A DNA stretch of 24,413 nucleotides. Origin: a virus. Below the pieces are notes generated by a model. It was not told the origin of the DNA. It saw only the letters and a list, made by a program, of their open reading frames with translations, and ran no database searches. Of this stretch, positions 4,755-24,413 are shown in pieces. Position numbers and translations under genes: made by a program. Where the stretch lies: the IMG/VR virus record IMGVR_UViG_3300025467_000071, positions 1 through 24,413 of that record, one strand, 5' to 3'. The first letter of the stretch is position 1. Each line of letters begins with the position of its first letter.

Positions 4755-7700
4755 ATGGGTTCTGTAAGCTTATATAATAATAGTTCTACTTCAGGGGGTA
4801 CACTTAGTAACTCTGTATCTATTCACTTTGATGATTATGTAGGATCTTACGGGGCTACCATTCTTAATAATATAGTAGTTACAAGTACTACTACTAGTTA
4901 TGTAACAGATTCTTCAGAGTTTCCTAATAACGCACAAGCTGTAGCATCTTTCGGTGGTTATACAGCAACGGATAATGAAAGTATTTATAGTTATAGCGTT
5001 GAAGCTACTGCTCAAGTAACGATTAATAATTTAAGAAGACAGCCTAGCGGAGACTGGGTAGCAGATAGTGTTGTAGTAGCTCCTGGTGGAACGTATTACG
5101 GTGTTAATTTCGGTGGGGGTGTGACGGTTTCAGGTAATGCAACCCCTGAAGGTGGTATATATGGTTTTGATTCAGGTAGTTCTAACATATCTGCTACTGT
5201 AAGCTGGTCAACACCAGCTGCACCAACAATTGCATGGGATGGTGGTAGTTTTCCTTCCAACTACACAGTCAATTCTGGTCAAACATATCGTCCAGGAGCC
5301 AATGCATATTCGGGTGCTAATGCATTAATTGCTATATTAATTGACAAGTCTTACGATGGTGGTAGTACATGGGTACCGTGGGCAGAAGTCCCATATAGCT
5401 ATGTTTCTTCGGCTGATAATACTGGTAATAATTCTACTGATACCGGTTCTGGTAACACTACTGTATTATGGCGTGCTCAAGCGCAAGACTCTTATGGTCA
5501 AGTAACTACCATATATCAGACTATAAACGTTAATGCTTACCCAACAGTTTCTTGGGGTACATTACCGAGTAGTTCTCCAGTAGTAGGCACTAGTTATAGT
5601 ATTACAGCTAATGGTAGCGATATTGATACAGCTTCTTGGGGTAGTATAGCTAGTACTGACATACAGGTATTATTTCCAGGATTCGGTAGTTATACAGATT
5701 TAGCAAACGACCCGGGCAGTACAGCAAGTTACAGTTCTACTTGGGATCATGGTACAGGTAATTACGTATTTAGGGCAAGTTCAACCGATAATAATGGGGC
5801 AACCAGTTCGTACATTTATTATACCGTTACAGTAGTAGGCCCAACACCTACACCGACAGCTACTACAACACCAGCTGTAACGCCTACACCCACTAGCACG
5901 CCGGCATCAACACCGTCCCCTACCCCTACTAGTACCCCGCGTGGTACGCCTCCTGCAACACCGACAGCTACACCTACTTCTACTCCGGCTTCTACACCAC
6001 CTGCTACTCCGACTCCTTCGGTAACACCGCTGCCGTCTAATACGCCGGCTCCTACTGTTACCCCTGCAGCCACAGTAACCCCCACAAATACACCGTCTTA
6101 TACTGTTACCCCTAGTGTTACTCTTACACCTGGTATCACTCCTACTCCTACAAGTACTCCGACTAGTACTGTAACACCTACCCCTACTGTAACCCCACCA
6201 CCTAGTGTTAGTGGTACACCTGGTGCATCTCTTACTCCAACACCTACCCCTACAGGAACACCGGCAGTTACGCCTACCCCAACAGTAACTCCGGCTTCTA
6301 CTCCTGGACCAACAGTAACTCCTACAATTAGTATAACGCCTTCTGTTACACCTTCTACAGGTGTGCTGGCAGCTTATACGCCTTGGACAGTAGCTACAAC
6401 AAATTCTCCAGTATGGGTACAGTCAGTGTATCCAATCAGTAAAAACGTTACAACTTATGGTATTAATTGGGGAGATGGTTCAGGTAATTCCTACTACGGT
6501 ACACTTTCAGGTTATACATCATATACTTCTTTACCAAGTAGTAGCAATTTCTTTTTATACAATTATACATTACCTATATCAGCAAATATAGGCTACACAG
6601 TAACTGTTGCAGCTTTAGCAGGTATTGGTGGTGTGCCTCGTGTATTAACTAACAGGTTTTACATTGATGCTACTTTACCTACTTACTCAACAGTTAATTT
6701 TTATGACCCAACAATAGATACGCCTGTATTACCGTGGAAATTAAACGATATTAAAATAGGTTCAAACGAATGGGCAGTAGCAGGTACCATAAACAATAGT
6801 TTACAAAAAATACAAGATAATTTTGACTATTTACAAAGTGTATCTCAAATTCTTTCTCTTAATATTAATTTTAATTTAGTAGAGTGGACTGGTATTTTAA
6901 ATCAAAGCAATACAACCCCTCTAACAGGGTATGCATGGAGAACAACTATACCTGGATTAAATGACGGCCTATTTAATACATATAATAGTGTAAGCGCAAT
7001 AGGTTTTGCAGACGGTACTGTAAAAGACTTTAAATCTTATAGATTTACAAACAATTCAGCTCCGGATTACTATAATTATATTGCGTTTGCTGGGTTAGGT
7101 AGTAACCCTGACTACATACAGGTACGTACTAATGACTATTACAACACTTTAGTATTGAGTGCAGCAAATATTGGTAGTTTTAACATGCCTAAGTTTAATA
7201 GCTTAAGCGCTATTGATTCTTATAATGATGAACTTTTCATACTTGACACAGATACAGTATACAAGGTCGATCTTAACATAAACGACGGCATATTAACCCC
7301 TATTGCCCAAGTAGGTGGAGAGTATGGTACAAGAAGTAATAATATAGGTTTCAATAACCCTGTAGAAATTAAAGCTTGGAACGCTAAAATTTATGTAGCG
7401 GATAGCAATAACAGCTGTGTTAAAGTTTACAACACCGCACTAGGTTGGTTAAGTACTCTTTACACAAGTCTATTAAGTGCATATAGTGTACAACGTATTG
7501 AAGTAAATAGAGCCAACGAACACGTATTTGTATTGGCGCAAACATTTGCTCCGGTGCCACCTATTGTAACGTATTCTACAACCATATCTGCTTCTTCTGC
7601 AACAGGTAACATGTATCAAATTAACTTTGTACATGACGGTTTAAGACTAAATGATAGTACATCATCTGGTATCAGTAATTCGTTTACTTTATATGGCTTA

Positions 7701-8690
7701 ATTTCTGGTGGTACATATTATTCCCCATTAACAGGCGCCATTTGGTCTAATGCAAGTTTACCGTATCAGCAATATGGTTCTATACCAGATACACAAACAG
7801 TTAAGTATGCCGCAGCATCTGGTTTAAATTATACAAACTTTGCTGTACAAGCTATAGGTTTAAGTGGGTTTAATTCAGCGCTTTCTAACGGTACTCCTAC
7901 ACCAAACATATATGCTTTTAAATCTCCGTATGCTATATTTGAGTTAGATCAAAAGAGTAATCTAATTAATGCTTTCCCTGTACCAAACAACACTGCTTAT
8001 ATTTTACCTTCAGGTAACATACAATCAAATGATGTTATTAACAAAATGGTAATTGATCCAACCGGTGCGTTTCTTTATTTAATTACCCCTTATTACATAT
8101 ACAAATATCTTACAACAGGTAAAGCGCTTAACAAAATAGTATTCCCAGACTTTGATACTTTAGGTGGTTTTGAATATCTAAAAACTGGGTTTATTGATGA
8201 CCGGTTAAACTTTTTCTTAGCTACTAATACTAGAATATTCAAATTTGTTGATTTACCTACAACTCTTAATCTGTACGATACAATAGGAGTTAATGCTTTG
8301 TTTACGCCTTTATCTGCTTGTTTAATTGATAGTAATGAATTTATACAAGACTGGGTTTATAATAAGAGCTTGTTGCGCATTATTCAAAACCATGAAATAC
8401 TTTATAAAGCAATTGAAGGAAAGTATTACATTAATCTTGATAGTAACGGCAATCTTATTATACCTAATACAAGTACAACAAGTATATGTTTAACTTCATT
8501 TGTGCCTTCAGATATATCTGAAGTGTTCTCTATAAACGATAGTTATTTTGTACACAGTAACGAATTAGTTACTAGTGATGTAATTAACCGTACGTTAACA
8601 AACATATATATTTTACAAAACGATATACTTAATTTGGTTACACCGAAAAAAGTAAAAGCTTTACCGAGCTATACTAGCAACAACCTTTAA
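4755..8690 (+). CDS. Giant fibre-like structural protein with Pro/Thr-rich linker
   Basis: This 1311-aa protein is mostly beta. Residues about 150-360 contain Ig/PKD-like units. Residues about 362-537 form a long Pro/Thr/Ser linker built from TPTPT-like units. A second PKD-like unit follows, with the diagnostic INWGDGSGN near residue 570. The segment LPWKLNDIKIGSNEWAV (about 659-675) leads into a helical stretch (INNSLQKIQDNFDYLQ). Beyond about residue 800 come repeated blade-like units (ELFILDTDTVYKVDL, IYVADSNNSCVKVYN) suggesting a beta-propeller. The likely role is a long tail or head fibre in which the linker separates globular heads. Pro and Thr codons vary widely along the linker, so it is not a recent DNA-level repeat expansion. 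The last 4 bases overlap the convergent minus-strand gene. Confidence 0.75.
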   Translation: MGSVSLYNNSSTSGGTLSNSVSIHFDDYVGSYGATILNNIVVTSTTTSYVTDSSEFPNNAQAVASFGGYTATDNESIYSYSVEATAQVTINNLRRQPSGDWVADSVVVAPGGTYYGVNFGGGVTVSGNATPEGGIYGFDSGSSNISATVSWSTPAAPTIAWDGGSFPSNYTVNSGQTYRPGANAYSGANALIAILIDKSYDGGSTWVPWAEVPYSYVSSADNTGNNSTDTGSGNTTVLWRAQAQDSYGQVTTIYQTINVNAYPTVSWGTLPSSSPVVGTSYSITANGSDIDTASWGSIASTDIQVLFPGFGSYTDLANDPGSTASYSSTWDHGTGNYVFRASSTDNNGATSSYIYYTVTVVGPTPTPTATTTPAVTPTPTSTPASTPSPTPTSTPRGTPPATPTATPTSTPASTPPATPTPSVTPLPSNTPAPTVTPAATVTPTNTPSYTVTPSVTLTPGITPTPTSTPTSTVTPTPTVTPPPSVSGTPGASLTPTPTPTGTPAVTPTPTVTPASTPGPTVTPTISITPSVTPSTGVLAAYTPWTVATTNSPVWVQSVYPISKNVTTYGINWGDGSGNSYYGTLSGYTSYTSLPSSSNFFLYNYTLPISANIGYTVTVAALAGIGGVPRVLTNRFYIDATLPTYSTVNFYDPTIDTPVLPWKLNDIKIGSNEWAVAGTINNSLQKIQDNFDYLQSVSQILSLNINFNLVEWTGILNQSNTTPLTGYAWRTTIPGLNDGLFNTYNSVSAIGFADGTVKDFKSYRFTNNSAPDYYNYIAFAGLGSNPDYIQVRTNDYYNTLVLSAANIGSFNMPKFNSLSAIDSYNDELFILDTDTVYKVDLNINDGILTPIAQVGGEYGTRSNNIGFNNPVEIKAWNAKIYVADSNNSCVKVYNTALGWLSTLYTSLLSAYSVQRIEVNRANEHVFVLAQTFAPVPPIVTYSTTISASSATGNMYQINFVHDGLRLNDSTSSGISNSFTLYGLISGGTYYSPLTGAIWSNASLPYQQYGSIPDTQTVKYAAASGLNYTNFAVQAIGLSGFNSALSNGTPTPNIYAFKSPYAIFELDQKSNLINAFPVPNNTAYILPSGNIQSNDVINKMVIDPTGAFLYLITPYYIYKYLTTGKALNKIVFPDFDTLGGFEYLKTGFIDDRLNFFLATNTRIFKFVDLPTTLNLYDTIGVNALFTPLSACLIDSNEFIQDWVYNKSLLRIIQNHEILYKAIEGKYYINLDSNGNLIIPNTSTTSICLTSFVPSDISEVFSINDSYFVHSNELVTSDVINRTLTNIYILQNDILNLVTPKKVKALPSYTSNNL
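5839..6360 (+). repeat. Pro/Thr-rich low-complexity segment
   Basis: About 175 codons are dominated by Thr and Pro with some Ser, Ala and Val, as irregular TPTPT, TPAST and TVTPT units. All four Thr codons and all four Pro codons are used. The repetition is therefore at protein level rather than as exact DNA copies. The complement also stays open for 88 codons as a Val/Gly-rich artefact. Confidence 0.85.
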
Positions 8691-11550: not shown

Positions 11551-12132
11551 ATGGAAAAAGAGCATAAGTATCACTATCTTTATAAGACAATTTGTACAGT
11601 AACTAAAAAAGAATATATAGGCGTACATAGTACAGACACAATTGAGGACGGGTATTTGGGATCTGGTTACCTATTAACAGAAGACATTAAAAAGTATGGC
11701 AAAGAATATTTTTTACGGGAGATTATAGCATTTTTCGATGATAGAGAAACTCTTTTAAAGAAGGAAAGAGAACTCGTAGATGAAAACTATATAGGTAGAG
11801 TAGATACCTATAATTTAGTTAAAGGTGGTAACGGCAATGTTTATATTTCAGAAGAAACTATAGCCAAAAGACTTAAAACACTGCAAAAAAGCTATAAACG
11901 TTTCCCAGAACTTTTAGAGAAAAATAGAAAAAACGCACTACTTGGTGCAAAGCTATCTAAAACACCTGAAGCTAGAGCTAAACAAAAGAAAACTCTTCAG
12001 GAAAGAGGTCATCAAAAAGGAGAAAAGAATAGTCAGTACGGTACACGTTGGTATAACGATGGTTTTAAAAACGTTAAAATACCTGCAGGGGTTGTACCTG
12101 CACCTAACTTAATAAAAGGTAGATTACCTTAA
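11551..12132 (+). CDS. Free-standing GIY-YIG endonuclease (putative homing endonuclease)
   Basis: This 193-aa protein has an N-terminal GIY-YIG nuclease domain with YLY at 9-11 and YIGVHST at 22-28. YLGSG (35-39) and KYGKEYFLREI (48-58) follow, then a likely catalytic Glu in LLKKERELVDE (E72). The usual Arg after YIG is replaced by His/Ser/Thr, a variant I associate with phage-encoded members. The C-terminus has NSQYGTRWYNDG (about 157-168), resembling the DNA-binding tails of phage GIY-YIG mobile endonucleases. Such enzymes cut related genomes lacking the gene and spread by repair. No intron is visible around it, so it appears intergenic and free-standing. Confidence 0.85.
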   Translation: MEKEHKYHYLYKTICTVTKKEYIGVHSTDTIEDGYLGSGYLLTEDIKKYGKEYFLREIIAFFDDRETLLKKERELVDENYIGRVDTYNLVKGGNGNVYISEETIAKRLKTLQKSYKRFPELLEKNRKNALLGAKLSKTPEARAKQKKTLQERGHQKGEKNSQYGTRWYNDGFKNVKIPAGVVPAPNLIKGRLP

Positions 12133-14274: not shown

Positions 14275-14297
14275 ATAATAGTGTAAAATACTATTAT
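14275..14297 (+). repeat. Inverted repeat covering the start of the APS kinase gene
   Basis: ATAATAGT (14275-14282) and ACTATTAT (14290-14297) are perfect complements around a 7-base loop. The first two bases of the ATG lie in the right arm. A TATAAT (14274-14279) overlaps the left arm, so this may be an operator on a -10 box or an RNA hairpin masking the start. Confidence 0.5.
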
Positions 14298-15060
14298 GAA
14301 GAAAATACTCGTAATGGGACTGCCTGGTGCAGGCAAAACAACTCTATCTTTAGAGTTAGCTAAGCTATTAGGAGCTACACATTTTAATGCCGATGAAATA
14401 CGCAATGAAATTAATAAAGACCTTAAGTTCAGTGTTGCAGACCGTCTTGAACAGGCTAGAAGAATGGGCGTGTTGTGCGATATTGTTTCTCGCTCTAATA
14501 GCTTTGCGATTGCCGATTTCGTATGCCCTACACCGGAAACTAGACAGGCATTCGGAAAAGCATTCGTAATCTGGGTAGACAGAATTACAGAAGGCAGATT
14601 TGAAGATACAAACAAAATGTTTGTACCCCCTGCTGAGTATGATGTAAGAGTTACAGCTGAAGGTACACCTTTGTTTTGGGCTAACAAAATTAAGAACATT
14701 ATACAGCCTGCATTTGATCCTAAATTACCAACAGCGTTTATGCTCGGTCGTTATCAACCTTTTCATAACGGTCACAAAGCTCTTATTTTAGAAGCTCTCA
14801 ATAGGGTAGGTCAAGTATGTATTGCTATTAGAGATACTAAAGGTACAGATGAAAAAAATCCGTTTGATTTAGATGAAGTAGAAGGTAATATTCGTACTGG
14901 TATGAAAGGCTATGAGAGTAAGTTCACTATTGTTAGAGTACCAAACATTACTAATATATTTTATGGTAGAGATGTCGGATATAAAATAGAACAAATTGAT
15001 TTAGATAAAACCTTACAAGAGATATCAGCTACTAAAATACGTAACGAACTTAAGGTATAA
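14296..15060 (+). CDS. APS kinase-like / HxGH nucleotidyltransferase fusion
   Basis: This 254-aa protein has two domains. Residues 1-137 resemble adenylylsulfate (APS) kinase: P-loop GLPGAGKTT (8-16), NADEIR (31-36), then NKDLKFSVADRLEQARR (40-56) as in the family's DLxFSxxDRxENxRR block, and DFVCPTPETR (74-83) at the place of FISPxxxxR. Residues 146-254 form a compact nucleotidyltransferase with GRYQPFHNGH (151-160; HxGH) and ISATKIR (243-249), as in NMN adenylyltransferase and cytidylyltransferases. The kinase domain would convert APS to PAPS with ATP. Domain order mimics animal PAPS synthases, but the second half is far shorter than ATP sulfurylase, so its substrate is open. A PAPS-using sulfotransferase lies at 19356, making PAPS supply a coherent though unproven role. 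Confidence 0.82.
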   Translation: MKKILVMGLPGAGKTTLSLELAKLLGATHFNADEIRNEINKDLKFSVADRLEQARRMGVLCDIVSRSNSFAIADFVCPTPETRQAFGKAFVIWVDRITEGRFEDTNKMFVPPAEYDVRVTAEGTPLFWANKIKNIIQPAFDPKLPTAFMLGRYQPFHNGHKALILEALNRVGQVCIAIRDTKGTDEKNPFDLDEVEGNIRTGMKGYESKFTIVRVPNITNIFYGRDVGYKIEQIDLDKTLQEISATKIRNELKV

Positions 15061-15072
15061 GTGGATTTATAT

Positions 15073-15080
15073 CATAAGTA
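15073..15080 (+). promoter_or_regulatory. CATAAGTA box, late-promoter variant
   Basis: TAAGTA ends 6 bases before the ATG at 15087. The two preceding bases are CA rather than AG. Confidence 0.3.
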
Positions 15081-15102
15081 TACGTAATGCGTAATACGTA
15101 TA
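15079..15102 (+). repeat. Perfect 8-bp inverted repeat with the start codon in the loop
   Basis: TATACGTA (15079-15086) and TACGTATA (15095-15102) are exact complements separated by 8 bases that begin with the ATG at 15087. As RNA this would present the start codon in a hairpin loop; as DNA it could be an operator. Confidence 0.55.
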
Positions 15103-15497
15103 AGATTTTAGCTGAATTATACAATGGTTTACAAGGAAAACCTTATGAACCAGAGAGAACTGTACGTCAAGTGCCATTTACAGATGATGAGTACAGAGTA
15201 TTAAGTAAGCTTTTTGACTTTCGTAGAAAAAAATCTAACTCTAATGAGCTAATGAGAATTTATGCACCAGGAGAGGTTGAAACGGTATTAAAGTATTCTG
15301 ATAATACGTATGTTTTAATGCTTGATGAAGGGCGTGGTATTGTTAAGCATGAGTATAATCACTTTTACGATCTTACAAAGTACTTGCGTCAAATATATAA
15401 AGCCAATAGAGATGCAGATAAAGAACAATCCATAGAAGGTCCTGATTTGCCTGCTGGTGTTACACAAGGTGGTCCTAGTCACCAAAGTCAATCATAA
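15087..15497 (+). CDS. Hypothetical protein
   Basis: This 136-aa protein starts within the loop of a perfect inverted repeat. The N-terminal half is helical and basic (TYKILAELYNGLQ, FTDDEYRVLSKLFDFRRKK). The central part has strands (TYVLMLDEGRGIVKHEYNHF), followed by a helix (YDLTKYLRQIYKANRDADKE). The tail is flexible with Pro, Gly, Ser and Gln. KHEYNHF contains two His and one Glu but does not match HExxH. The family is not recognised. It is probably expressed with the kinase fusion before it or the glycosyltransferase after it. Confidence 0.6.
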   Translation: MRNTYKILAELYNGLQGKPYEPERTVRQVPFTDDEYRVLSKLFDFRRKKSNSNELMRIYAPGEVETVLKYSDNTYVLMLDEGRGIVKHEYNHFYDLTKYLRQIYKANRDADKEQSIEGPDLPAGVTQGGPSHQSQS

Positions 15498-15531
15498 TAA
15501 TAAAGTGCAACAGTTTAAAAAAGCCGTGCGC

Positions 15532-15548
15532 GGGTAAATATTGTACCC
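15532..15548 (+). repeat. Short inverted repeat upstream of the GT-B gene
   Basis: GGGTA (15532-15536) and TACCC (15544-15548) flank a 7-base spacer, and a TAAATA (15535-15540) spans the left arm. It lies 9 bases before the ATG at 15558. An operator or weak hairpin is possible. Confidence 0.35.
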
Positions 15549-15557
15549 ACATATATT

Positions 15558-16628
15558 ATGGCTAAAGTTTTGTTTATACTCAAACGTAGAGAAGATTACA
15601 ATGGTGTAGCACACTCTCAAATTGGTTTAAGCACAGGACTCTACAATTCTGCAAGCTTTGTAAACAATATGCTTAAAGCATATAATATAGAGTCTAATTT
15701 AGTTGTAGTAGTAGATAATAATGATATAGATAGAGAAGTTACTAAGTATCGCCCTACACATGTTGTTATTGAAGCTTTGTGGGTAGTGCCTACTAAGTTT
15801 GATGTACTACAAAAATTACATCCAAATGTAAAATGGATTGTACGTTTGCATAGTGAGTTACCGTTTATGGCAGGAGAAGGTATGGCAATGGACTGGATAG
15901 GAGATTACTCGACTTATAAAAATGTAATAATAGCTTGTAATGCTCCTAGAATGTATAAGGAAATACAGAATTATTTACGTATAAAAAATAATTGGTTAAA
16001 AGAAACATCGAACAGCAAAGTTATATATTTGCCAAACCATTACCCAGGCTTTTATAGGGCGCCTAAACCTATAGACTATAATAAAGAAATAGTAAATGTA
16101 GGTTGTTTTGGAGCAATAAGGCTATTAAAAAACCATTTAGTACAAGCATTTGCTGCAATTGATTTTGCAAACAAAATAGGCAAAAAACTACATTTTCATA
16201 TTAATGCAGGGCGTATAGAAATGAAAGGTGAACCTGTATTACATAATTTGAAAGGGCTATTTTTACAATTACACGATAAAGGGCATGAATTAATTAATCA
16301 TGAATGGACACCTAGAGAAAATTTTGTCAATCTTTGCGGTCGTATGGATATAGGTTTACAAGTAAGTTTTTCAGAAACATTTAATATTGTAGGAGCTGAT
16401 TATATATCAGAAGGAACACCAATAGTAGGAAGTTCAGAAATACCTTGGTTAAAGAATGAGTGGTTTTACGAAACTAATTACTGTGCAGATCCTACTGATA
16501 GTCAAGATATTACAGCAAAATTAATAGATGCTTATTACCACCCAGCTAGAAATGTAAATCAGTGTCAAAGATCTTTAAAAAAATATTGTAAAGAAACAGA
16601 GTCTGTTTGGACTAAGTATTTTAATTAA
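15558..16628 (+). CDS. GT-B glycosyltransferase (family 4-like)
   Basis: This 356-aa protein has a two-Rossmann GT-B layout. The N-terminal half starts with a strand (AKVLFILKRRED) followed by NGVAHSQIGLS, as expected for an acceptor-binding domain, then VVIEALWVVP and VKWIVRLHSELPF. The C-terminal donor domain begins near residue 183 with CFGAIRLLKNHLVQAF. It contains the nucleotide-sugar signature SETFNIVGADYISEGTPIVG (about 272-291), matching the E...[ED]...G.P.V block of GT4 enzymes. It would transfer a sugar from an activated donor, but donor and acceptor cannot be read from sequence. Likely targets are virion proteins, phage DNA or host surface polymers. With the GT-A enzyme at 20275 it gives the window two glycosyltransferases of different folds. 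Confidence 0.75.
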   Translation: MAKVLFILKRREDYNGVAHSQIGLSTGLYNSASFVNNMLKAYNIESNLVVVVDNNDIDREVTKYRPTHVVIEALWVVPTKFDVLQKLHPNVKWIVRLHSELPFMAGEGMAMDWIGDYSTYKNVIIACNAPRMYKEIQNYLRIKNNWLKETSNSKVIYLPNHYPGFYRAPKPIDYNKEIVNVGCFGAIRLLKNHLVQAFAAIDFANKIGKKLHFHINAGRIEMKGEPVLHNLKGLFLQLHDKGHELINHEWTPRENFVNLCGRMDIGLQVSFSETFNIVGADYISEGTPIVGSSEIPWLKNEWFYETNYCADPTDSQDITAKLIDAYYHPARNVNQCQRSLKKYCKETESVWTKYFN

Positions 16629-16629
16629 T

Positions 16630-16830
16630 ATGTCTAAGCACACCGTAAAATTGCATAGTTGGAGATTTGGCAAACTTAAAGTTGTAGAACGTACGTTTGA
16701 AAGCATACATGATGCACTTAATTTTGCTAGACACAATAATGGTCACGGCATAAAGATCTATAATGAAGAGAATACGTTAGTGCATTCTGCCGGAGATGTT
16801 CCGCCAGAAAATACAGATTCGTACGCTTAA
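16630..16830 (+). CDS. Hypothetical protein
   Basis: This 66-aa protein lies 1 base after the glycosyltransferase stop and is co-transcribed with it. The pattern is a strand (HTVKLHSWRFGKLKVVERTF), a helix (SIHDALNFARHNNG), a strand (GIKIYNEENTLVHSAG) and a disordered end. The alpha/beta plan suggests a small folded domain. No catalytic residues are evident, and I do not recognise a named family. Confidence 0.6.
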   Translation: MSKHTVKLHSWRFGKLKVVERTFESIHDALNFARHNNGHGIKIYNEENTLVHSAGDVPPENTDSYA

Positions 16831-16834
16831 GTAC

Positions 16835-16862
16835 TTGAAAAACGTTTCATATGTAATATAAT
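16835..16862 (+). promoter_or_regulatory. TTGAAA-N16-TATAAT promoter, start codon at about +1
   Basis: TTGAAA (16835-16840), a 16-base spacer and consensus TATAAT (16857-16862). The ATG at 16870 follows 7 bases later, so the mRNA should be leaderless or nearly so. Two CATATG copies (16848-16853 and 16867-16872) flank the -10 box; the second contains the start codon. Confidence 0.7.
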
Positions 16863-16869
16863 ATATCAT

Positions 16870-17259
16870 ATGAGACTCAACATTAAAGTAGATGCTGCCG
16901 TACAGGATTACGCGGATTCCATTATAAAAGCAGCTAAAGACTATAAGTGTGATGTTGATATTGATGTAGTTACTAACGAAACAAGTAACACTACAGGTAC
17001 AGAGAAAGCTAATCAAATTTTAATTACATCAGAATTAGGCGTTGTAGTAGTGTTTCCTGATTTTACTAAATCTTCTGCCCGCGCTACAATATTTGATATG
17101 GGAGAGTTAAATCGTTTACAGAAAGAAGGCTTTAGTGATGACTTTATAGAAGAAAAGGGTCACGTTTACGGAGCATTACTAAAAAAGACTCAAAAGAATG
17201 CTGAAATGTTCGGCTATTATTTAACACATAAATTAAACTTAAAATCGAAAACAAACTAA
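16870..17259 (+). CDS. Hypothetical protein
   Basis: This 129-aa protein has an N-terminal alpha/beta pattern (LNIKVDAAVQDYADSIIKAA, KCDVDIDVVTNE), then hydrophobic strands (QILITSELGVVVVFPDF) and a helical, basic C-terminus (ALLKKTQKNAEMFGYYLTHK). No known motif is seen. It is driven by a near-consensus promoter abutting its start, so it is probably expressed early, together with the gene beginning 1 base after its stop. Confidence 0.65.
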   Translation: MRLNIKVDAAVQDYADSIIKAAKDYKCDVDIDVVTNETSNTTGTEKANQILITSELGVVVVFPDFTKSSARATIFDMGELNRLQKEGFSDDFIEEKGHVYGALLKKTQKNAEMFGYYLTHKLNLKSKTN

Positions 17260-17260
17260 C

Positions 17261-17551
17261 ATGTCGACAGATAAATTAAAAATCCATCCAGAACTTTTAA
17301 AAATGTATAACTCCCCAGGTTACCGTAAAAAGGTAAAACAGGCAATTACTAAAATTAAAGAGTTACATAACATAAAGAACAAGCTTAAAAGAGGCTTTCC
17401 AAAGCTTAGTTTACAAGCCACTGAGAAACAAAAAACTGCTCATGTAAAGCTATATACTAACAAGCCTGACGTTAACACAGCACATTATTTTTGTCAATTT
17501 ATTAATACAGCTCAAGATCGTAAAAATACAAAATCAGCTGATAAAAAATAA
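17261..17551 (+). CDS. Small basic hypothetical protein
   Basis: This 96-aa protein is very rich in Lys (SPGYRKKVKQAITKIKELHN, IKNKLKRGFPKL; tail RKNTKSADKK). A helical N-terminal half is followed by a short strand region (TAHVKLYTNKPDV) and a segment with one Cys (AHYFCQFINTAQ). The charge suggests nucleic-acid or ribosome association, but no motif confirms it. It follows the previous gene after 1 base in the same transcript. Confidence 0.6.
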   Translation: MSTDKLKIHPELLKMYNSPGYRKKVKQAITKIKELHNIKNKLKRGFPKLSLQATEKQKTAHVKLYTNKPDVNTAHYFCQFINTAQDRKNTKSADKK

Positions 17552-17553
17552 GC

Positions 17554-17581
17554 TTGCACTATTCCTATAAGGCACCATACT
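17554..17581 (+). promoter_or_regulatory. TTGCAC-N16-CATACT promoter, start codon at about +1
   Basis: TTGCAC (17554-17559), a 16-base spacer and CATACT (17576-17581), 6 bases before the ATG at 17588. Both hexamers and the spacer are identical to the promoter at 9780, which marks a phage promoter class. Confidence 0.65.
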
Positions 17582-17587
17582 GTATCT

Positions 17588-18133
17588 ATGAACCTTGATA
17601 CTAACCTTATAGCTATATCTAAATGTGGTAAGTACGTTTACCCGGTTGATTCTATTTCCGGTGCAAAAACCTTTGCACCTATTGAGTATTTTAAAAAGAC
17701 CCTAGCAGAAAAATACAATAACGATTTAAAGTTGTTTGTTAAAGAGTACGTCACGAGAGAGACTAAAAAGTACTTGGCTGCTGGATATACTCCAGAACAA
17801 ATTAAAGATTTAGCTTCTAAATGTAAAGGTAATAAGTTACCGAAGATAAACGTAAAGCTCAAGAAGCATCCTAATATGCCTAAAAAGGAAAGGCGTAAAC
17901 GTTTAGCTTCTCATGCAGAGTCTACCACTGTAGTAATTAACGAAGAAGGTAAAGAAGAGAAAGTAAGAACCTATCCTTGGACTGGTAATCCTGATTACTT
18001 TAGAAGTGAACCAGCTTATACAAATATTGCTGAAGTTACAAAAGAAGCTTGTTTAATGCCACACATTAATCTCGATGATGAATGTCATGGTTGTAAGTAC
18101 TACGATGTCTGCTTATGCCCTCTGAAACAATAA
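17588..18133 (+). CDS. Hypothetical protein with C-terminal Cys cluster
   Basis: This 181-aa protein has a helical N-terminal region (APIEYFKKTLAEKYNNDLKL, VTRETKKYLAAGYTPEQIKDL). A basic Lys/Arg middle follows (KKHPNMPKKERRKR). The C-terminus carries C155 and then a tight cluster CHGCKYYDVCLC (C166, C169, C175, C177). The CxxCx5CxC spacing could bind zinc or an iron-sulfur cluster. No enzyme family is recognised. The HAD phosphatase gene starts inside its last codons (19-base overlap), implying coupled translation and possibly a shared pathway. It has its own strong promoter. Confidence 0.65.
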   Translation: MNLDTNLIAISKCGKYVYPVDSISGAKTFAPIEYFKKTLAEKYNNDLKLFVKEYVTRETKKYLAAGYTPEQIKDLASKCKGNKLPKINVKLKKHPNMPKKERRKRLASHAESTTVVINEEGKEEKVRTYPWTGNPDYFRSEPAYTNIAEVTKEACLMPHINLDDECHGCKYYDVCLCPLKQ

Positions 18134-18645
18134 ACATATTTGTCGATCTAGACGAAACCTTAATACATACTCTCGGTATGAAAACCGTTGCAGGAGATGT
18201 AGAAAAGGTTGACAATCTTTGTGATAAGCCTGTAACTGTATCGTTAGGTAAGAAAGAGCATTATGTAGCAGTATTAAGGCCTGGTGCAAATTATCTCTTG
18301 TTTCGTTTAAGAGAAATAGGGCATGTTTATATGCTTACTAGAGCCGCTAAAGATTATGCTCAAGCAATGAACAAAGCTTTTAATTTCGGGTTTGACGAAG
18401 ACAGGATATTTGATAGAGAGTATGTTAAGGATTGGAAACACAAAAACCCTAAAATAAAGATAGATACTGGTAAAAACGTTCTTATTGATGATTTAAGAGT
18501 TTTTGATAATTTTGAAAAGGTAGCTTTTATTAAGAAATTCGGTATCGCCAAATACATTAATGTATCTGCATTTTGGGGCAATAAAGAAGAAGGATTTACA
18601 GTTGAAAGTATAGATAATATTGTAGAGGATGTTAAAACTAATTAG
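18115..18645 (+). CDS. HAD-superfamily phosphatase, FCP1/NIF-like
   Basis: This 176-aa protein has all HAD motifs. Motif I is FVDLDETLIH (D11 nucleophile, D13), the DLDETL form typical of FCP1/SCP-type phosphatases. Motif II is VYMLTRA (T75), preceded by LRPGANYLLFRLREIG, which matches the FCP1-like RPGxxxFL block. A Lys lies in DWKHKNPK (about 106-113) and motif III is NVLIDDLRVF (D125/D126). No long cap domain is present, so the active site is open to macromolecular substrates. FCP1-like enzymes remove phosphate from protein Ser/Thr, although phage members may act on nucleotides or nucleic-acid ends. The gene overlaps the upstream Cys-cluster gene by 19 bases. Confidence 0.82.
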   Translation: MPSETINIFVDLDETLIHTLGMKTVAGDVEKVDNLCDKPVTVSLGKKEHYVAVLRPGANYLLFRLREIGHVYMLTRAAKDYAQAMNKAFNFGFDEDRIFDREYVKDWKHKNPKIKIDTGKNVLIDDLRVFDNFEKVAFIKKFGIAKYINVSAFWGNKEEGFTVESIDNIVEDVKTN

Positions 18646-18664
18646 TGGATATTTAAATAATACA

Positions 18665-18672
18665 AGTAAATC
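18665..18672 (+). promoter_or_regulatory. AGTAAATC box, late-promoter variant
   Basis: AGTAAATC ends 6 bases before the ATG at 18679 and differs from AGTAAATA only in the last base. A second TAAATA lies at 18654-18659. Confidence 0.3.
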
Positions 18673-18678
18673 ATTATA

Positions 18679-18954
18679 ATGAAACTATTACCAAATCCGA
18701 AGCTAGTACAGCATTTAATTAAGAATAAATGTAAGGTTGCCTTTAAAAGTGCCGGTAAAGACGCAATGTACCTAATGATAGACTACACTGTACAAGCTAA
18801 GAAGCCTGCTGCTGGTCTTGATTTATTAGGTAATAGTCAAGAGGTTTTCGAAAAAGTTGCAAGTTCTGTACGCAAATACTATCCAAATGCTGAGCTATCT
18901 TCTCAAAACGGTAGTCACACAGTAGTTTATCGTATTACTTCTAATCAAAATTAA
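18679..18954 (+). CDS. Hypothetical protein
   Basis: This 91-aa protein has an alternating pattern: a helix (NPKLVQHLIKNKCKVAF), a strand (DAMYLMIDYTVQA), a helix (EVFEKVASSVRKYYPNAEL) and a strand (SHTVVYRITSN). It is probably a small alpha/beta domain. There are no metal ligands, membrane segments or recognised motifs. Confidence 0.6.
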   Translation: MKLLPNPKLVQHLIKNKCKVAFKSAGKDAMYLMIDYTVQAKKPAAGLDLLGNSQEVFEKVASSVRKYYPNAELSSQNGSHTVVYRITSNQN

Positions 18955-18975
18955 CATTAAAACACATATACAATT

Positions 18976-18983
18976 AGTAAATA
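18976..18983 (+). promoter_or_regulatory. AGTAAATA box, candidate late promoter
   Basis: Exact AGTAAATA in an intergenic gap, ending 7 bases before the ATG at 18991. This copy is not explained by an overlapping stop codon. Confidence 0.5.
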
Positions 18984-18990
18984 ATTATAT

Positions 18991-19320
18991 ATGTCTTGCT
19001 CAAGATACGCTTTATATTATGGTGGTACAGCTGGTGCAGGTAATGGTGTATTAGCTGTTACCTATCGTAACTGTGGTGACCGTACACCAACTAACCTTAC
19101 AGTTACTGGTGGTACATCTGGGGCATTTTATGGTGTAGTAATTGCAAGCACAGATTATGATGTACCTTCTTTAACTTGTACAACAGGATATGCTTCAGCA
19201 GGTGGTGCACCGGTTGGTGGGTTTGTATATAATATTCCAGTTGTGCCTTATGCAACGTATGTTACTACAAATTCCGTAAGTGCTTTATCAGCGCACGGTC
19301 TACCATATCCTACTACTTAA
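18991..19320 (+). CDS. Small Gly/Thr-rich protein, probably virion component
   Basis: This 109-aa protein is rich in Gly, Thr, Ala and Tyr and is predicted to be all-beta: CSRYALYYGGTAGAGNGVL, VTYRNCGDRTPTNLTVTGG, then GAFYGVVIAS. Three or more Cys residues are present. The composition resembles small decoration or fibre-associated proteins. The gene has an intergenic AGTAAATA box like those of the giant structural genes, supporting late expression. No named family is recognised. Confidence 0.6.
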   Translation: MSCSRYALYYGGTAGAGNGVLAVTYRNCGDRTPTNLTVTGGTSGAFYGVVIASTDYDVPSLTCTTGYASAGGAPVGGFVYNIPVVPYATYVTTNSVSALSAHGLPYPTT

Positions 19321-19342
19321 AGTTGTAGTTTAGCTTATTTAA

Positions 19343-19350
19343 AGTAAGTG
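19343..19350 (+). promoter_or_regulatory. AGTAAGTG box, late-promoter variant
   Basis: AGTAAGTG ends 5 bases before the ATG at 19356, which favours that ATG over the upstream in-frame GTG at 19350. Confidence 0.35.
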
Positions 19351-19355
19351 TGGGT

Positions 19356-20015
19356 ATGTTGATATTTGTTCATGTACCTAAAACAGCAGGCTCTACGTTT
19401 AAATCTCTTATATCAAAAGAGTTTAATTCTAAAGATATTTTAGTTATAGATTCTCCTAGCTGGATTAGCGAGGAATTAATAGTTAATAGATCTAATTTAC
19501 CGGGTAGTGTTGCGCAAAAACCAAACAGTAATATAAAGTTTATGTGCGGACATTTTAAAGCGACTAAAGCTTTAAACATGTATCCAGATGCAACATTAAT
19601 AACTTGGTTAAGAAACCCAGTAGAAAGAGTTGTATCCCAGTATTATTATTATCTAGGAGCTAGTTACACATACGGTGTTAGAACAGAACATAGAACATAC
19701 GATTTAGTAACGTTAGAAGATTTTATTAAATACTCTTCTCATCAAAACATTGCTACTTCTTTATTAGATGTTCCGTTAGATAGATTTAAGTTTATAGGTA
19801 TAAAGGAGCACTTTAAAGAAGAATTAAAAAGGTTTAACAGAGTTATGGGGTTTAATTTAAATCAGCCAACTGTAGATTATAATGTAAATAGTAAAAAACA
19901 AAATATAAACGAAAACTATTCTGTAAGTGAAGAGATACGTGAACTAATAAGATATCACAATAAAAAAGATGTTGAAATGTATGAAGAGTGTTTGAAAAAA
20001 GCAGGATACAAGTAA
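19356..20015 (+). CDS. PAPS-dependent sulfotransferase-like protein
   Basis: The ATG at 19356 is chosen over an in-frame GTG at 19350 because it follows an AGTAAGTG box; this gives 219 aa. The N-terminus MLIFVHVPKTAGSTFKSLI contains the 5'-phosphosulfate-binding loop (PKTAGST, 8-14). WLRNPVERVVSQYYY (84-98) is the 3'-phosphate-binding block with R86 and S94. CGHFKA (64-69) supplies a conserved His between them. These are the hallmarks of the Sulfotransfer_2-type family, which sulfates carbohydrates in eukaryotes and bacteria. No membrane anchor or signal peptide is present, so it would act in the cytoplasm. It would need PAPS, which the kinase fusion at 14296 could provide. A glycan acceptor is likely given the neighbouring glycosyltransferase, but this is inference. 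Confidence 0.82.
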   Translation: MLIFVHVPKTAGSTFKSLISKEFNSKDILVIDSPSWISEELIVNRSNLPGSVAQKPNSNIKFMCGHFKATKALNMYPDATLITWLRNPVERVVSQYYYYLGASYTYGVRTEHRTYDLVTLEDFIKYSSHQNIATSLLDVPLDRFKFIGIKEHFKEELKRFNRVMGFNLNQPTVDYNVNSKKQNINENYSVSEEIRELIRYHNKKDVEMYEECLKKAGYK

Positions 20016-20023: not shown

Positions 20024-20287
20024 ATGAGTGAACAGCAAGGACCTAGTTTATTGCAAATGGCTTTTAGTCTTTCTGAAACCGGAAAAGACGTTTTAGCAGG
20101 AGCTATAAAATCTGGAGTCATATTAGCTACAGAGGACGTAGTCACAGAAAGACAGTCAATGTGTCTATCATGCGACAAACTTAAAAAAGACGGTATTATA
20201 TCAAGGTGTATGGCTTGTGGGTGTGGTATGAATATAAAAACTCGCTTAGAAAAGTCTAAGTGTCCTTTAAGTAAATGGACCCGATAG
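20024..20287 (+). CDS. Zinc-ribbon-like small protein
   Basis: This is an 87-aa protein when started at the ATG at 20024, which follows an AGTAAATA box; a TTG at 19988 would lengthen it into the preceding gene. The N-terminal half is helical and Ser/Gly-rich (SLLQMAFSLSETGKDVLAGA). The C-terminal half has CLSC (47-50), CMACGC (62-67) and CPLSKW (80-85). Six Cys in a CxxC...CxxCxC...C arrangement probably bind zinc. Similar short proteins occur in phages, with function unknown. It overlaps the downstream glycosyltransferase by 13 bases, so the two may be translationally coupled. Confidence 0.7.
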   Translation: MSEQQGPSLLQMAFSLSETGKDVLAGAIKSGVILATEDVVTERQSMCLSCDKLKKDGIISRCMACGCGMNIKTRLEKSKCPLSKWTR

Positions 20288-21402
20288 TCTCATTAATAAC
20301 ACCTACTCACCGTCCTGATAAGCTTTTACGGTTATATGATTCCATAGCTAAACAAACTGATAAAAGGTTTGAATGGGTAGTAATACCTAACAACAGGGCT
20401 GATGTAACTATACTACCAGTTGAACCGTGGATAAAAATAGTACCCTATAACGGCGGAACTAATATTGGGGAAATTAAAAAATTCGGCTTTATGCAAGGCG
20501 TTGGTGAGTTGTTAGCAGAAGTAGATCACGATGATGAACTTGTACCTACTTGTATAGAGACGCTTATTAATAATAAAGATAAAGGCGATTTTATCTATTC
20601 TAACAATTTAGTATTAGATTCTAATAATAAACCTTATACTTGGGGACCAGATTTTGGGTGGAAATATAGTACCTATAACTATAAAGAAGAAGAGTGTTTA
20701 ATTAATGTAGCGTTTCCACCTTTACCAGCTAATTTTAGTTGGCAATTTTGGGCACCTAATCATATTAGAGTGTGGCGTAAAGACTTTTATAATAAAATAG
20801 GTGGGCATAACTCTAGTTTAAAGGCTTGTGATGATGGGGAATTAATGTGTCGTAGTATGATGTACGGTAAAATACATCATATAAATGAAGTACTCTACAT
20901 ATATTATCTACATTTAGATAACTCTCATTCTCAAAGTGATTTAAAGTTATGGATTGAAAATTACACCGACTATATGCACAAAGCATATACAGTACCTATG
21001 ACAGTTGCTTGGTGTAAAGCTAATAATTATAACATATACAATACTAATACTATTACACTACAGTCTACTAACGCCGGACTTATAGTGTTTGAAGATATAC
21101 GTAACATACGTAACCTAGATGTATACATGATGTTAGCATATAACATATTAATACCTGGAGGTATTTTATTATTAACTAACTCTATAGAAGCAGAAACCAT
21201 TATATCTAGTCCGCATTCTAAACAAATATCATACTGGGATCAAGCGTATAAGACCAACGCTTGTGCCTGTTTTATATCAAATGGTGTACATATAGTAAAC
21301 AACACAGTATATGGATACTTTACTAAAACTACAGAAAACACGCATGTAGCTATATCCAAAACGGATTATTCTTCTATATTGAATAACTACTACCAACAGT
21401 AA
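20275..21402 (+). CDS. GT-A glycosyltransferase (family 2-like) with partial methyltransferase-like tail
   Basis: This 375-aa protein has a GT-A domain in residues 1 to about 230. The N-terminal strand is IVSLITPTHRPDKLLRLYDS, followed by WVVIPNNR. The metal/nucleotide-sugar DxD lies in EVDHDDEL (82-89), and CDDGELMCR (185-193) sits at the position of the catalytic-base segment. From about residue 250 the sequence resembles the second half of a SAM methyltransferase: LIVFEDIRNI, a helix, then NILIPGGILLLTN (PGG at 294-296) and SYWDQAYKT. The Gly-rich SAM-binding motif I expected before it is absent, so this tail is probably non-catalytic or a remnant. It starts within the zinc-ribbon gene. 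The sugar donor and acceptor are unknown. Confidence 0.78.
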   Translation: MDPIVSLITPTHRPDKLLRLYDSIAKQTDKRFEWVVIPNNRADVTILPVEPWIKIVPYNGGTNIGEIKKFGFMQGVGELLAEVDHDDELVPTCIETLINNKDKGDFIYSNNLVLDSNNKPYTWGPDFGWKYSTYNYKEEECLINVAFPPLPANFSWQFWAPNHIRVWRKDFYNKIGGHNSSLKACDDGELMCRSMMYGKIHHINEVLYIYYLHLDNSHSQSDLKLWIENYTDYMHKAYTVPMTVAWCKANNYNIYNTNTITLQSTNAGLIVFEDIRNIRNLDVYMMLAYNILIPGGILLLTNSIEAETIISSPHSKQISYWDQAYKTNACACFISNGVHIVNNTVYGYFTKTTENTHVAISKTDYSSILNNYYQQ

Positions 21403-21851: not shown

Positions 21852-23357
21852 ATGAAAGGCGCAAAAAACATCGTTGTAGTAGGCGGTGGTGCAGCTGGTT
21901 GGTTGACTGCTTTAACGTTACAAAAGCTTTTTTCTACTACCCAAAACATTACTCTAATTGAAAGCGATCAAATAGGTATATTAGGTGCAGGAGAAGGGGT
22001 AGTACCAAGTTTTAATTCCTTTTTATTTAAAATATTAAAACTACCCTTTTATGATTTTATAAAAAGCACTAGTGCTACCTTTAAATATTGTACTGCGTTT
22101 AAAAACTGGAATGGTAAAGAAGAGTTTTGGGTAAATGCATTTGCACCTACTACCATACAACATTATGATAAGGTAATTAACAAAGCACCGTTCATTAAGG
22201 ATACTATTACTAATAGGTATGATATGGTTATACCGCATGCATTTCATTTCGATGCTTCTTTATTAGCTAAATTTTTAAAAGAAAATGCTTTAAAACGAGG
22301 CATACATAGAATAGAAGGTAAAGTTGTATCGTTTAATAATGATACGAACGGCTTTATAAAAGAAATAGTATTTGAAGATGGTCGTAAAGTTAATAGTGAT
22401 TTTGTTTTTGATTGTTCTGGTTTTAAAAGATTAATAATAGGTAAACACTATAATTCTCGTTGGATATGTCTCAAGCATAGATTTCCAGGTAAAGCAGCGT
22501 TACCTTTCTTTCTCGATATAGATAAAGAATACAAACCATACACTCTCACCACTGCTATGAAGCACGGTTGGATGTGGAAAATACCTTTACAGCATCGCTA
22601 CGGTAGTGGGTATATATTTGATTCTGATTATATAACAGAAGATCAAGCAAAAGAAGAAGTTGAACAATATTTAGGTCATTCAATTAAACCTGTTAATCTA
22701 TTTAAATACAGCCCGGGGTATTACGAAAAAATATGCATAAAGAATTGTATGGCTGTAGGGCTTTCTACTGGTTTTTCAGAACCATTAGATTCTAATGCTT
22801 TAGGTGTAGTTGTTACTCTATTAAATACTGGGGTGCTATCAGTAACAAATACATTTGTAAAAATGCTTTCTGATCTTAACAACGAAACGTATAAAGAAGA
22901 ATTTAATAAATTACATTTAGATACAGTTAATAATTGGCACAGTGGTATACAAGTACACTATTTAACTAAACGAACAGATAGTTTGTTTTGGAAAGAGTTT
23001 AGAACAAAATATAAAATATACGATTCTCTTTTAGATTTATTAGAACGCCATAAAACAATTCGCTTAGAAGATGACCCTGTAATGAAAGACGGGCTACCGC
23101 CGTTTCCGCTTTTTAATTGGTTAACGATTTTTAAAAACAAAGAACTTTTAAATACAGACCTATACCCAAGCAAGCAAATAGGTGCTGATATCTTCACCGC
23201 AGAAAATGATTTAAACGATTGCTACATGGAGCCGTTAATGGATAAAAACTATTTTGTGAACAACATTACTAAAGATTGGGGTATTACCGGTTACGAGCCT
23301 TTAGATTTAAAAACAAAACGTTCTTATCGTTTATTGCAAAGATTCAACTCATTTTGA
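21852..23357 (+). CDS. Flavin-dependent tryptophan halogenase family protein
   Basis: This 501-aa protein has the length and motifs of the Trp_halogenase family. An N-terminal FAD-binding GGGAAGWLTALTL (11-23) is followed by GAGEGVVPSF (45-54). FKYCTAFKNW (77-86) supplies K78, which aligns with the catalytic Lys79 of PrnA. HFDASLLAKFLKENAL (132-147) is also family-typical. The diagnostic WxWxIP is GWMWKIP (239-245). GFSEPLDSNALG (307-318) corresponds to the EPLEST block, with Asp313 where PrnA has catalytic Glu346. Such enzymes use FADH2, O2 and halide to halogenate an aromatic substrate and need a flavin reductase, which is not seen here. The substrate is probably not free tryptophan, but sequence alone cannot say. 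Its end overlaps the convergent cyclase gene by 9 bases. Confidence 0.88.
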   Translation: MKGAKNIVVVGGGAAGWLTALTLQKLFSTTQNITLIESDQIGILGAGEGVVPSFNSFLFKILKLPFYDFIKSTSATFKYCTAFKNWNGKEEFWVNAFAPTTIQHYDKVINKAPFIKDTITNRYDMVIPHAFHFDASLLAKFLKENALKRGIHRIEGKVVSFNNDTNGFIKEIVFEDGRKVNSDFVFDCSGFKRLIIGKHYNSRWICLKHRFPGKAALPFFLDIDKEYKPYTLTTAMKHGWMWKIPLQHRYGSGYIFDSDYITEDQAKEEVEQYLGHSIKPVNLFKYSPGYYEKICIKNCMAVGLSTGFSEPLDSNALGVVVTLLNTGVLSVTNTFVKMLSDLNNETYKEEFNKLHLDTVNNWHSGIQVHYLTKRTDSLFWKEFRTKYKIYDSLLDLLERHKTIRLEDDPVMKDGLPPFPLFNWLTIFKNKELLNTDLYPSKQIGADIFTAENDLNDCYMEPLMDKNYFVNNITKDWGITGYEPLDLKTKRSYRLLQRFNSF

Positions 23358-24413
23358 AGTTGCTCTAAACACTCCGCCCCAATCAGCTGGTAAGTTAGCA
23401 TTTCTAAGCTCATTAATTCTTTCTATCATGTTTTCGTAATAGTGAGCTAATTCGGGGTTATAAGTTATTAAGGATTTGGCTAATTGTATAGCATTATCCC
23501 ATCTTTGCATTCTATAATCTGATAAAAATCCGTCATGTATTTGGCCTACATAAGGCTTTTCCATTGTAAGAAAGTTATTTTGTACAGCAGTATAGATCTT
23601 CACACCTTCTTTTTTACCTTTAACAGCTATACAATCTAGTTCAAAACACTTGTATTTGTCTTTAACGTATTCGTAGGTCTTAGGACCAATTACTATCTTT
23701 ACACCGTAAGGTTTAGATTGCCCTTCTAACCTCGAGGCCAAATTAACTCCGTCGCCCAAGCAAGTGTAATCGAAACGCTGAGTACTGCCCATATTACCAA
23801 CAACAACAGTATCTGTGTTGATTCCAAGACCCATTCCAAAGGCTGGCACCCCTTCTTGAGCAATTTCTTTATTAAATTCATCTAGATTACTTAACATTAT
23901 CATTGCTGTTTTCAATGCATTTAATGCATGCTCTTTATCATCTAATGGTGCATTCCAAAAGGCCATTTGTGCGTCACCTATATACTTGTCTAATGTGCCG
24001 TTATTGTCTAGTATAGCTTTAGTCATAGCAGTCATATAACGGTTCATTATCTTTGTTAGTCCTTGTACGTCTTTACCATAATGTTCTGATATAGTAGTAA
24101 AGCCTCTCACGTCAGTAAACATAATAGATAACTCTCTACTATCACCACCTAATCTTAATAGATCTGGATTCTCTTGCAACTTCTCAACCATTGCTGGTGA
24201 TAGATAGGTACCGAATTGTTTCTTGATTTGCTGCTTTAGCTTAAATTCTTGTACAAATCTAAAGAATAAAGCTCCTACCCAGGGTAGTAGTACTGCTAGA
24301 GTAGGCCATGTATAATCTAAAAGATATCCATTATTAACAAATAAACGCGAACCAATAAAAAAGGGTACACACAAGAATACAGTAACTAACAAACCATTTA
24401 GGATATACCCCAG
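23349..24413 (-). CDS. Membrane-anchored class III adenylate cyclase, 5'-truncated by window edge
   Basis: The frame stays open to the last base, so the N-terminus is outside; the TTG at 24392 (residue 1 in this numbering) is not a convincing start. Two hydrophobic helices (about 1-15 and 27-47) lead through a basic linker to FGTYLSPAMVEKL. The cyclase domain follows: FTDVRGFT (metal Asp94), LDKYIGDAQMAFW (adenine-specifying Lys136, metal Asp140), and DYTCLGDGVNLASRLEG with Thr210 at the second substrate position and Asn217/Arg221 of the transition-state pair. All catalytic residues are present, and Thr210 points to the IIIb subclass. It should make cAMP at the inner membrane. The helix-linker layout matches CHASE2-cyclases, so a periplasmic sensor domain may lie beyond the edge. 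Confidence 0.9.
   Translation of the reverse strand: MGYILNGLLVTVFLCVPFFIGSRLFVNNGYLLDYTWPTLAVLLPWVGALFFRFVQEFKLKQQIKKQFGTYLSPAMVEKLQENPDLLRLGGDSRELSIMFTDVRGFTTISEHYGKDVQGLTKIMNRYMTAMTKAILDNNGTLDKYIGDAQMAFWNAPLDDKEHALNALKTAMIMLSNLDEFNKEIAQEGVPAFGMGLGINTDTVVVGNMGSTQRFDYTCLGDGVNLASRLEGQSKPYGVKIVIGPKTYEYVKDKYKCFELDCIAVKGKKEGVKIYTAVQNNFLTMEKPYVGQIHDGFLSDYRMQRWDNAIQLAKSLITYNPELAHYYENMIERINELRNANLPADWGGVFRATSK

Follow-up and report, generated by a model that had tools for sequence, protein, structure and literature searches.

The 24,413-base IMG/VR virus record IMGVR_UViG_3300025467_000071, analysed here over its whole length and hereafter called the window, carries a fusion gene at 14296-15060 whose product joins a domain resembling kinases of adenosine 5'-phosphosulfate (APS) to a short HxGH adenylyltransferase domain, as well as a sulfotransferase gene starting at 19350. 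This fusion is probably a compact, kinase-first, bifunctional synthase of 3'-phosphoadenosine 5'-phosphosulfate (PAPS), in which a new and minimal ATP sulfurylase, similar to nicotinamide mononucleotide adenylyltransferase (NMNAT) and phosphopantetheine adenylyltransferase (PPAT), is combined with an APS kinase, and the PAPS so formed would be used by the sulfotransferase. The features concerned are as follows.

14296..15060, plus strand: compact PAPS-synthase-like fusion of 254 amino acids, APS-kinase-like domain plus minimal HxGH adenylyltransferase
14296..14709, plus strand: kinase domain (residues 1-138), from PDB profile matches, fold and APS-binding residues
14317-14340, plus strand: P-loop GLPGAGKT
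14392-14403, plus strand: D33/R36
14428-14445, plus strand: F45..R50
14599-14601, plus strand: F102
14728..15060, plus strand: adenylyltransferase domain (residues 145-254), putative minimal ATP sulfurylase
14746-14775, plus strand: GRYQPFHNGH
14962-14982, plus strand: YGRDVGY
15022-15042, plus strand: ISATKIR
19350..20015, plus strand: sulfotransferase of the Sulfotransfer_2 type (PF03567), GTG start at 19350 or in-frame ATG at 19356
19377-19397, plus strand: 5' phosphosulfate loop PKTAGST
19611-19628, plus strand: 3' phosphate motif RNPVER

In the proposed route, the C-terminal HxGH domain would convert ATP and sulfate into APS and pyrophosphate. The N-terminal domain would then phosphorylate the 3'-OH of APS (APS + ATP -> PAPS + ADP), an activity that is strongly supported, and the sulfotransferase, as suggested by its family and motifs, would turn PAPS and an acceptor into the sulfated acceptor and 3'-phosphoadenosine 5'-phosphate. 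The acceptor would most likely be a glycan on the virion or host surface, and the 3'-phosphoadenosine 5'-phosphate would presumably be recycled by the host. The direction of flux, both catalytic activities of the fusion and the acceptor are inferred rather than observed.

The first-pass annotation of the window had described the gene at 14296 as an APS kinase domain joined to a compact HxGH nucleotidyltransferase. This architecture was recovered by a Pfam scan, which detected APS_kinase at residues 4-86 (PF01583, E 2e-12, 47.7 bits for a cut-off of 21.1) and CTP_transf_like at residues 149-192 (PF01467, E 6e-6), with no match to the Sat family PF01747. The whole protein matched phrog_10255 'kinase' (E 1e-53); this label and the PGAP label 'cysC' designate the same family after its first domain only, and neither recognises the adenylyltransferase domain. 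The AlphaFold model has a mean pLDDT (predicted local distance difference test) of 90. A relative of the fusion was encoded in 590 of 600 IMG/VR stretches (the first 600 candidates) and, because it is conserved over its full length with both active-site motif sets near-invariant among viral copies, the open reading frame (ORF) lies far beyond chance. Full-length homologues were found in Casjensviridae, phage DLP6, many alphaproteobacteria, SAR11 and SAR116, and also on haloarchaeal plasmids (27-30% identity). As judged from sequence, the fusion is not the oddity of a single phage but a widespread module that occurs in hundreds of phages and also in cells, namely alphaproteobacteria, SAR11 and haloarchaea.

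Several lines of evidence identify the kinase half. Its best PDB profile matches were APS kinases (E 6e-15), and those covering it below 1e-7 were either APS kinases or, in PAPS synthases and fungal ATP sulfurylase, APS-kinase-like domains. Consistent with this, comparison of its model with APS kinases, including 4fxp, gave a fold Z of 19 over 138 residues. In CysC of M. tuberculosis, APS is bound by Asp480, Arg483, Phe492, Arg497 and Phe576 (PMC4373884). These residues correspond to D33, R36, F45, R50 and F102 of the fusion, of which the first four occur in 100% of viral copies and the last as F or Y in 99%. With the curated apsK model TIGR00455, the fusion of the window scored 40.7 bits, below the cut-off of 138.7, and haloarchaeal homologues of the whole fusion passed it with 160 and 155 bits. 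Since the haloarchaeal form also keeps the lid of APS kinases, a module with an undoubted APS kinase in front does exist.

The adenylyltransferase half is characterized by three motifs, G-R-x-Q-P-x-H-x-G-H, G-R-x-V-G-Y and S-x-T-x-x-R, that are invariant or nearly so from viruses to archaea. Their order (HxGH, GRD loop, S[AG]TxxR) has a parallel in ATP sulfurylase, whose substrate-binding loops follow each other as RNP/HxxH, the GRD loop and SGTxxR (PMC3779200). With about 110 residues, the domain is too short for a normal ATP sulfurylase, as noted at first pass, and it is not Sat by sequence. Because its closest relatives by sequence are NMNAT and PPAT, and not Sat, its function was read from the genomic context. 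With an APS kinase on one side and an APS reductase on the other, this context favours a minimal sulfurylase over an unrelated nucleotidyltransferase, the two possibilities raised initially. In the literature searched, nothing was found that describes this domain as a sulfurylase.

The sulfotransferase had been predicted from PAPS-binding motifs in a gene placed at 19356. Its identity was upheld by PF03567 across residues 4-212 (E 7e-9, 36.6 bits for a cut-off of 22) and by the motifs PKTAGST and RNPVER, and only its start had to be moved, to the GTG at 19350, 19356 being an in-frame ATG; a match to PF06990 (E 6e-6) was below the cut-off of that family. The gene shares its strand with the fusion gene, from which it is separated by 4.3 kb containing other small genes. 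At the sensitivity of the search made, this particular sulfotransferase occurred only in four near-identical viral contigs, and other carriers of the fusion pair with different sulfotransferase families. Judging co-occurrence from the sulfotransferase of the window alone was thus rejected as misleading.

Co-occurrence in related phages, set beforehand by the first-pass annotation as a test capable of refuting its proposal, came out positive when sulfotransferases of either PF13469 or PF03567 were counted: 18 of 48 fusion-bearing viral records had one above cut-off versus 2 of 37 fusion-free controls (Fisher p 6e-4). The controls were drawn from 40 viral records, about half selected by a random 15-mer and about half being neighbours of a relative of the pyrimidine-dimer glycosylase of the window. 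Three of these 40 turned out to hold the fusion and were set aside, leaving 37; all three had a PF03567 match (E <1e-4), one of them above cut-off. With our own iterative sulfotransferase model, a sulfotransferase was located within 300 bp of the fusion in 17 of 44 groups; the results of this model are in line with Pfam, but since such a model may drift, the Pfam counts stand as primary evidence.

The same association is found outside phages. On annotated haloarchaeal plasmids, the sulfotransferase adjoins the fusion in seven cases out of seven, usually followed by a YqcI/YcgG gene (L313-L317, L322, L323); on one of these plasmids (L315), the YqcI gene stands upstream of the cassette on the opposite strand. 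In Rhizobium sp. BK376, a single ORF of 555 residues (L203:7137-8804), which might be translated as one chain, contains Sulfotransfer_2, APS_kinase and CTP_transf_like domains, and a Rhodoferax plasmid displays the order tail-fibre assembly, sulfotransferase, APS kinase. Co-occurrence in phages, haloarchaea and SAR11 (see below), together with this Rhizobium ORF, provides sequence-level support for the initial reading of a PAPS supply coupled to a sulfotransferase.

A further link to sulfation came from the small membrane protein DUF2061, which is encoded beside the phage fusion more often than any other protein. Its gene immediately follows the fusion gene in 26-27 groups; it was seen in no control locus and is also missing from the window. 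Mesorhizobium huakuii has the DUF2061 gene flanked by a sulfotransferase gene and cysD-cysNC, beside nodBC and nodIJ, in a Nod-factor sulfation operon, as is established for nodH/nodPQ. DUF2061 also occurs at the C-terminus of CysN in Microvirga and Methylocystis; these are the only two CysN-DUF2061 fusions counted, our own DUF2061 model having also matched two CysNC proteins without Pfam support. The phage fusion takes the place that CysD/CysNC holds beside DUF2061 in the Nod-factor sulfation operon. Representative DUF2061 loci are as follows.

L025:6896-7099: beside the phage fusion
L326:4971-5204: in the Nod sulfation operon
L318:9181-10767: fused to CysN

In many SAR11 genomes, the kinase and the adenylyltransferase are encoded by two genes that either adjoin or lie within a few kb of each other; in three of them (L295, L296, L297), the split genes are separated by several kb with large proteins of the secreted-repeat type. 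In SAR11 genomes that have the adenylyltransferase but no kinase, this standalone gene precedes aprM, aprB and aprA by about 50-75 bp in 12 of the 13 loci examined, the aprBA genes being identified by TIGR02061 for AprA (E 2e-299) and TIGR02060 for AprB (E 4e-56). In two further SAR11 genomes, the fusion is found about 1.2-1.7 kb from aprMBA.

L285:7596-11193 (also L284, L286-L292, L310-L312): standalone adenylyltransferase with aprM-aprB-aprA in SAR11

Candidatus Pelagibacter was reported to have AprBA and to lack cysDNCHIJ and sat, and the table of the same paper lists cysC and cysQ (PMC5069961). Among the 27 SAR11 genomes tested that have the fused or split enzyme, CysD was above cut-off in none and Sat in three. 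Of the 118 SAR11 genomes considered, seven had CysD above cut-off, and all seven lack the compact kinase. A sulfotransferase was present in 33 of 44 genomes with the kinase versus 16 of 73 (p 2e-8; 117 of the 118 genomes classified), and in one of 16 with the adenylyltransferase alone, although these genomes share ancestry and some are incomplete, so that the counts are not independent trials. APS is the metabolite common to the kinase-linked and the aprMBA-linked settings, and the adenylyltransferase domain may be the ATP sulfurylase missing from SAR11. We lean towards the view that this domain is the first representative of a third class of ATP sulfurylases, minimal in size (ca. 110 residues) and NMNAT/PPAT-like, which would work forward, fused or paired with APS kinase, to feed sulfation in phages, alphaproteobacteria and haloarchaea and, as a standalone enzyme beside the SAR11 APS reductase, in reverse (APS + pyrophosphate -> ATP + sulfate), thereby representing the 'missing sat'.

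A number of observations weigh against this assignment. The closest sequences of the adenylyltransferase half are NMNAT (E 1e-8) and its closest folds PPAT and NMNAT (Z 11.7 and 10.7, respectively). In the structure comparison that the first-pass annotation had recommended, Sat was absent among the matches listed for the isolated domain, which were mainly PPAT and NMNAT, and this comparison of predicted folds does not settle the substrate. Alignment with four Sat sequences by hhalign gave a probability of 4%, with no homology beyond the SxTxxR/HxxH pieces. The QxRN loop by which Sat binds sulfate does not occur in that form, and in 19% of viral copies the Asp of GRD is replaced by G. CysD is also present in most non-SAR11 alphaproteobacterial carriers. 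The closest sequences and folds and the lack of a profile match to ATP sulfurylase would suit an APS kinase whose second half adenylylates some other substrate, such as NMN, a phosphopantetheine-like compound or a sugar compound, PAPS being then made only from APS of the host; kinase-only relatives do exist beside sulfotransferases, which indicates that the second domain is not required for the kinase to work. We nevertheless regard this possibility as unlikely, given the standalone copies in the APS reductase operon, the lack of any other recognisable source of APS in most SAR11 carriers, and the fusion to APS kinase across bacteria, archaea and phages. Scores with the curated NMNAT models were 36 bits for a cut-off of 127 (NF002243) and 32 for 181 (TIGR01527).

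The kinase half and the gene neighbourhood raise difficulties of their own. The KGLY lid is mostly deleted in phage and SAR11 kinases, the ribose-contacting Lys562 being gone, and a conserved Asn is Q or H in most phage copies. An NADAR gene stands directly upstream of the fusion in Casjensviridae and overlaps its start (L002:7559-8002, L003:7559-8002, L004:1559-2002), which could hint at the metabolism of nicotinamide adenine dinucleotide (NAD). A weak Sulfotransfer_4-like gene precedes the NADAR gene in L002 and L003. NAD salvage was in fact the reading first considered: the protein would combine a nicotinamide riboside kinase with NMNAT, as NadR does in reversed order, or else an NMNAT with a kinase domain phosphorylating NAD at the adenosine 3'-OH, in agreement with the NMNAT-like N-half of the second domain. 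It was demoted by the linkage to sulfotransferase, DUF2061 and aprBA and, with APS-binding residues retained in the kinase half and true APS kinases in haloarchaea, it now appears very improbable. As for the sulfotransferase, many fusion-bearing records, some larger than 100 kb, have no PF13469 or PF03567 sulfotransferase; no such protein was detected in three close relatives of the window that have the fusion (L010, L013, L088), and none was recognised within 8 kb of the fusion in phage DLP6, going by the annotation of that phage. Together with the 4.3 kb between the two genes and the restriction of this sulfotransferase to four contigs, the three close relatives might suggest that the fusion makes PAPS and that the sulfotransferase of the window is an unrelated passenger relying on PAPS of the host. 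We find this improbable in view of the strong enrichment of sulfotransferases with the fusion, their proximity in other groups, and the position of both window genes on the same strand of one stretch. A PAPS synthase coupled to the sulfotransferase thus remains our preferred interpretation.

Two other genes of the window bear on the possible acceptor.

15558..16628, plus strand: probable glycosyltransferase between the fusion and sulfotransferase genes (phrog_2170, E 0.0015, weak)
20275..21402, plus strand: family 2 glycosyltransferase, 3' of the sulfotransferase (PF00535, E 3e-7)

The products of these genes, the first of which is weakly supported, are plausible makers of the glycan acceptor. 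An adenylate/guanylate cyclase catalytic domain (23349-24413, minus strand) and a tryptophan-halogenase-like protein (21852-23357) both have relatives in Pelagibacter phage HTVC008M, the former also in Methylophilales phage Melnitz and the latter also in cyanophages; the occurrence of these relatives in HTVC008M and Melnitz indicates that the window is a genuine phage. The window also encodes a homing endonuclease of the GIY-YIG type (11551-12132; phrog_314, E 3e-34) and a protein of 1311 residues with a long Thr/Pro-rich repeat stretch (4755-8690), which had no match in a PHROG search and is probably a virion adhesin.

If true, a complete phage sulfation route would extend the known modifications of virion and host surfaces by an anionic decoration, which could plausibly affect adsorption and exclusion. 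The adenylyltransferase domain also offers a concrete candidate for the ATP sulfurylase that SAR11 genomes carrying APS reductase lack. This would explain why SAR11 retains 'cysC' and cysQ without sulfate assimilation, and the fate of APS in this dominant marine lineage is reduced to a simple enzyme question.

In its overall organization, the fusion resembles the animal PAPS synthases PAPSS1/2, in which an APS kinase likewise precedes a sulfate-activating domain in a single chain. The whole model aligns with 1xjq and 1x6v (Foldseek, VIA-align), but the full-length root-mean-square deviation reaches about 18 A in VIA-align, so that domain placement differs. The animal enzymes are also much larger (more than 560 residues in PAPSS1 structures versus 254), and their second domain is Sat, whereas the fusion has a bare HxGH domain and a short kinase lid. 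Sat-type ATP sulfurylases (PF01747) share with this second domain the HxxH adenylyltransferase superfamily and the order of the GRD loop and S[AG]TxxR. In Sat, however, GRD and SxTxxR are at least 60 residues apart, versus about 20 in the fusion, and the QxRN loop and extra domains of Sat have no counterpart there, nor is there a sequence-profile match. The closest sequences and folds, archaeal and NadM-Nudix NMN adenylyltransferases and PPAT, differ from the second domain of the fusion by its GRDVGY loop and by its neighbours, which are APS kinase or APS reductase instead of NAD or coenzyme A genes. In terms of gene content, a parallel is the NodPQ/NodH system of rhizobia (CysD-CysNC plus sulfotransferase), where PAPS supply and sulfotransferase are carried together as in the window, with DUF2061 between them. 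There, the PP-loop enzyme CysD is partnered by a GTPase, and in the phage one small chain replaces both.

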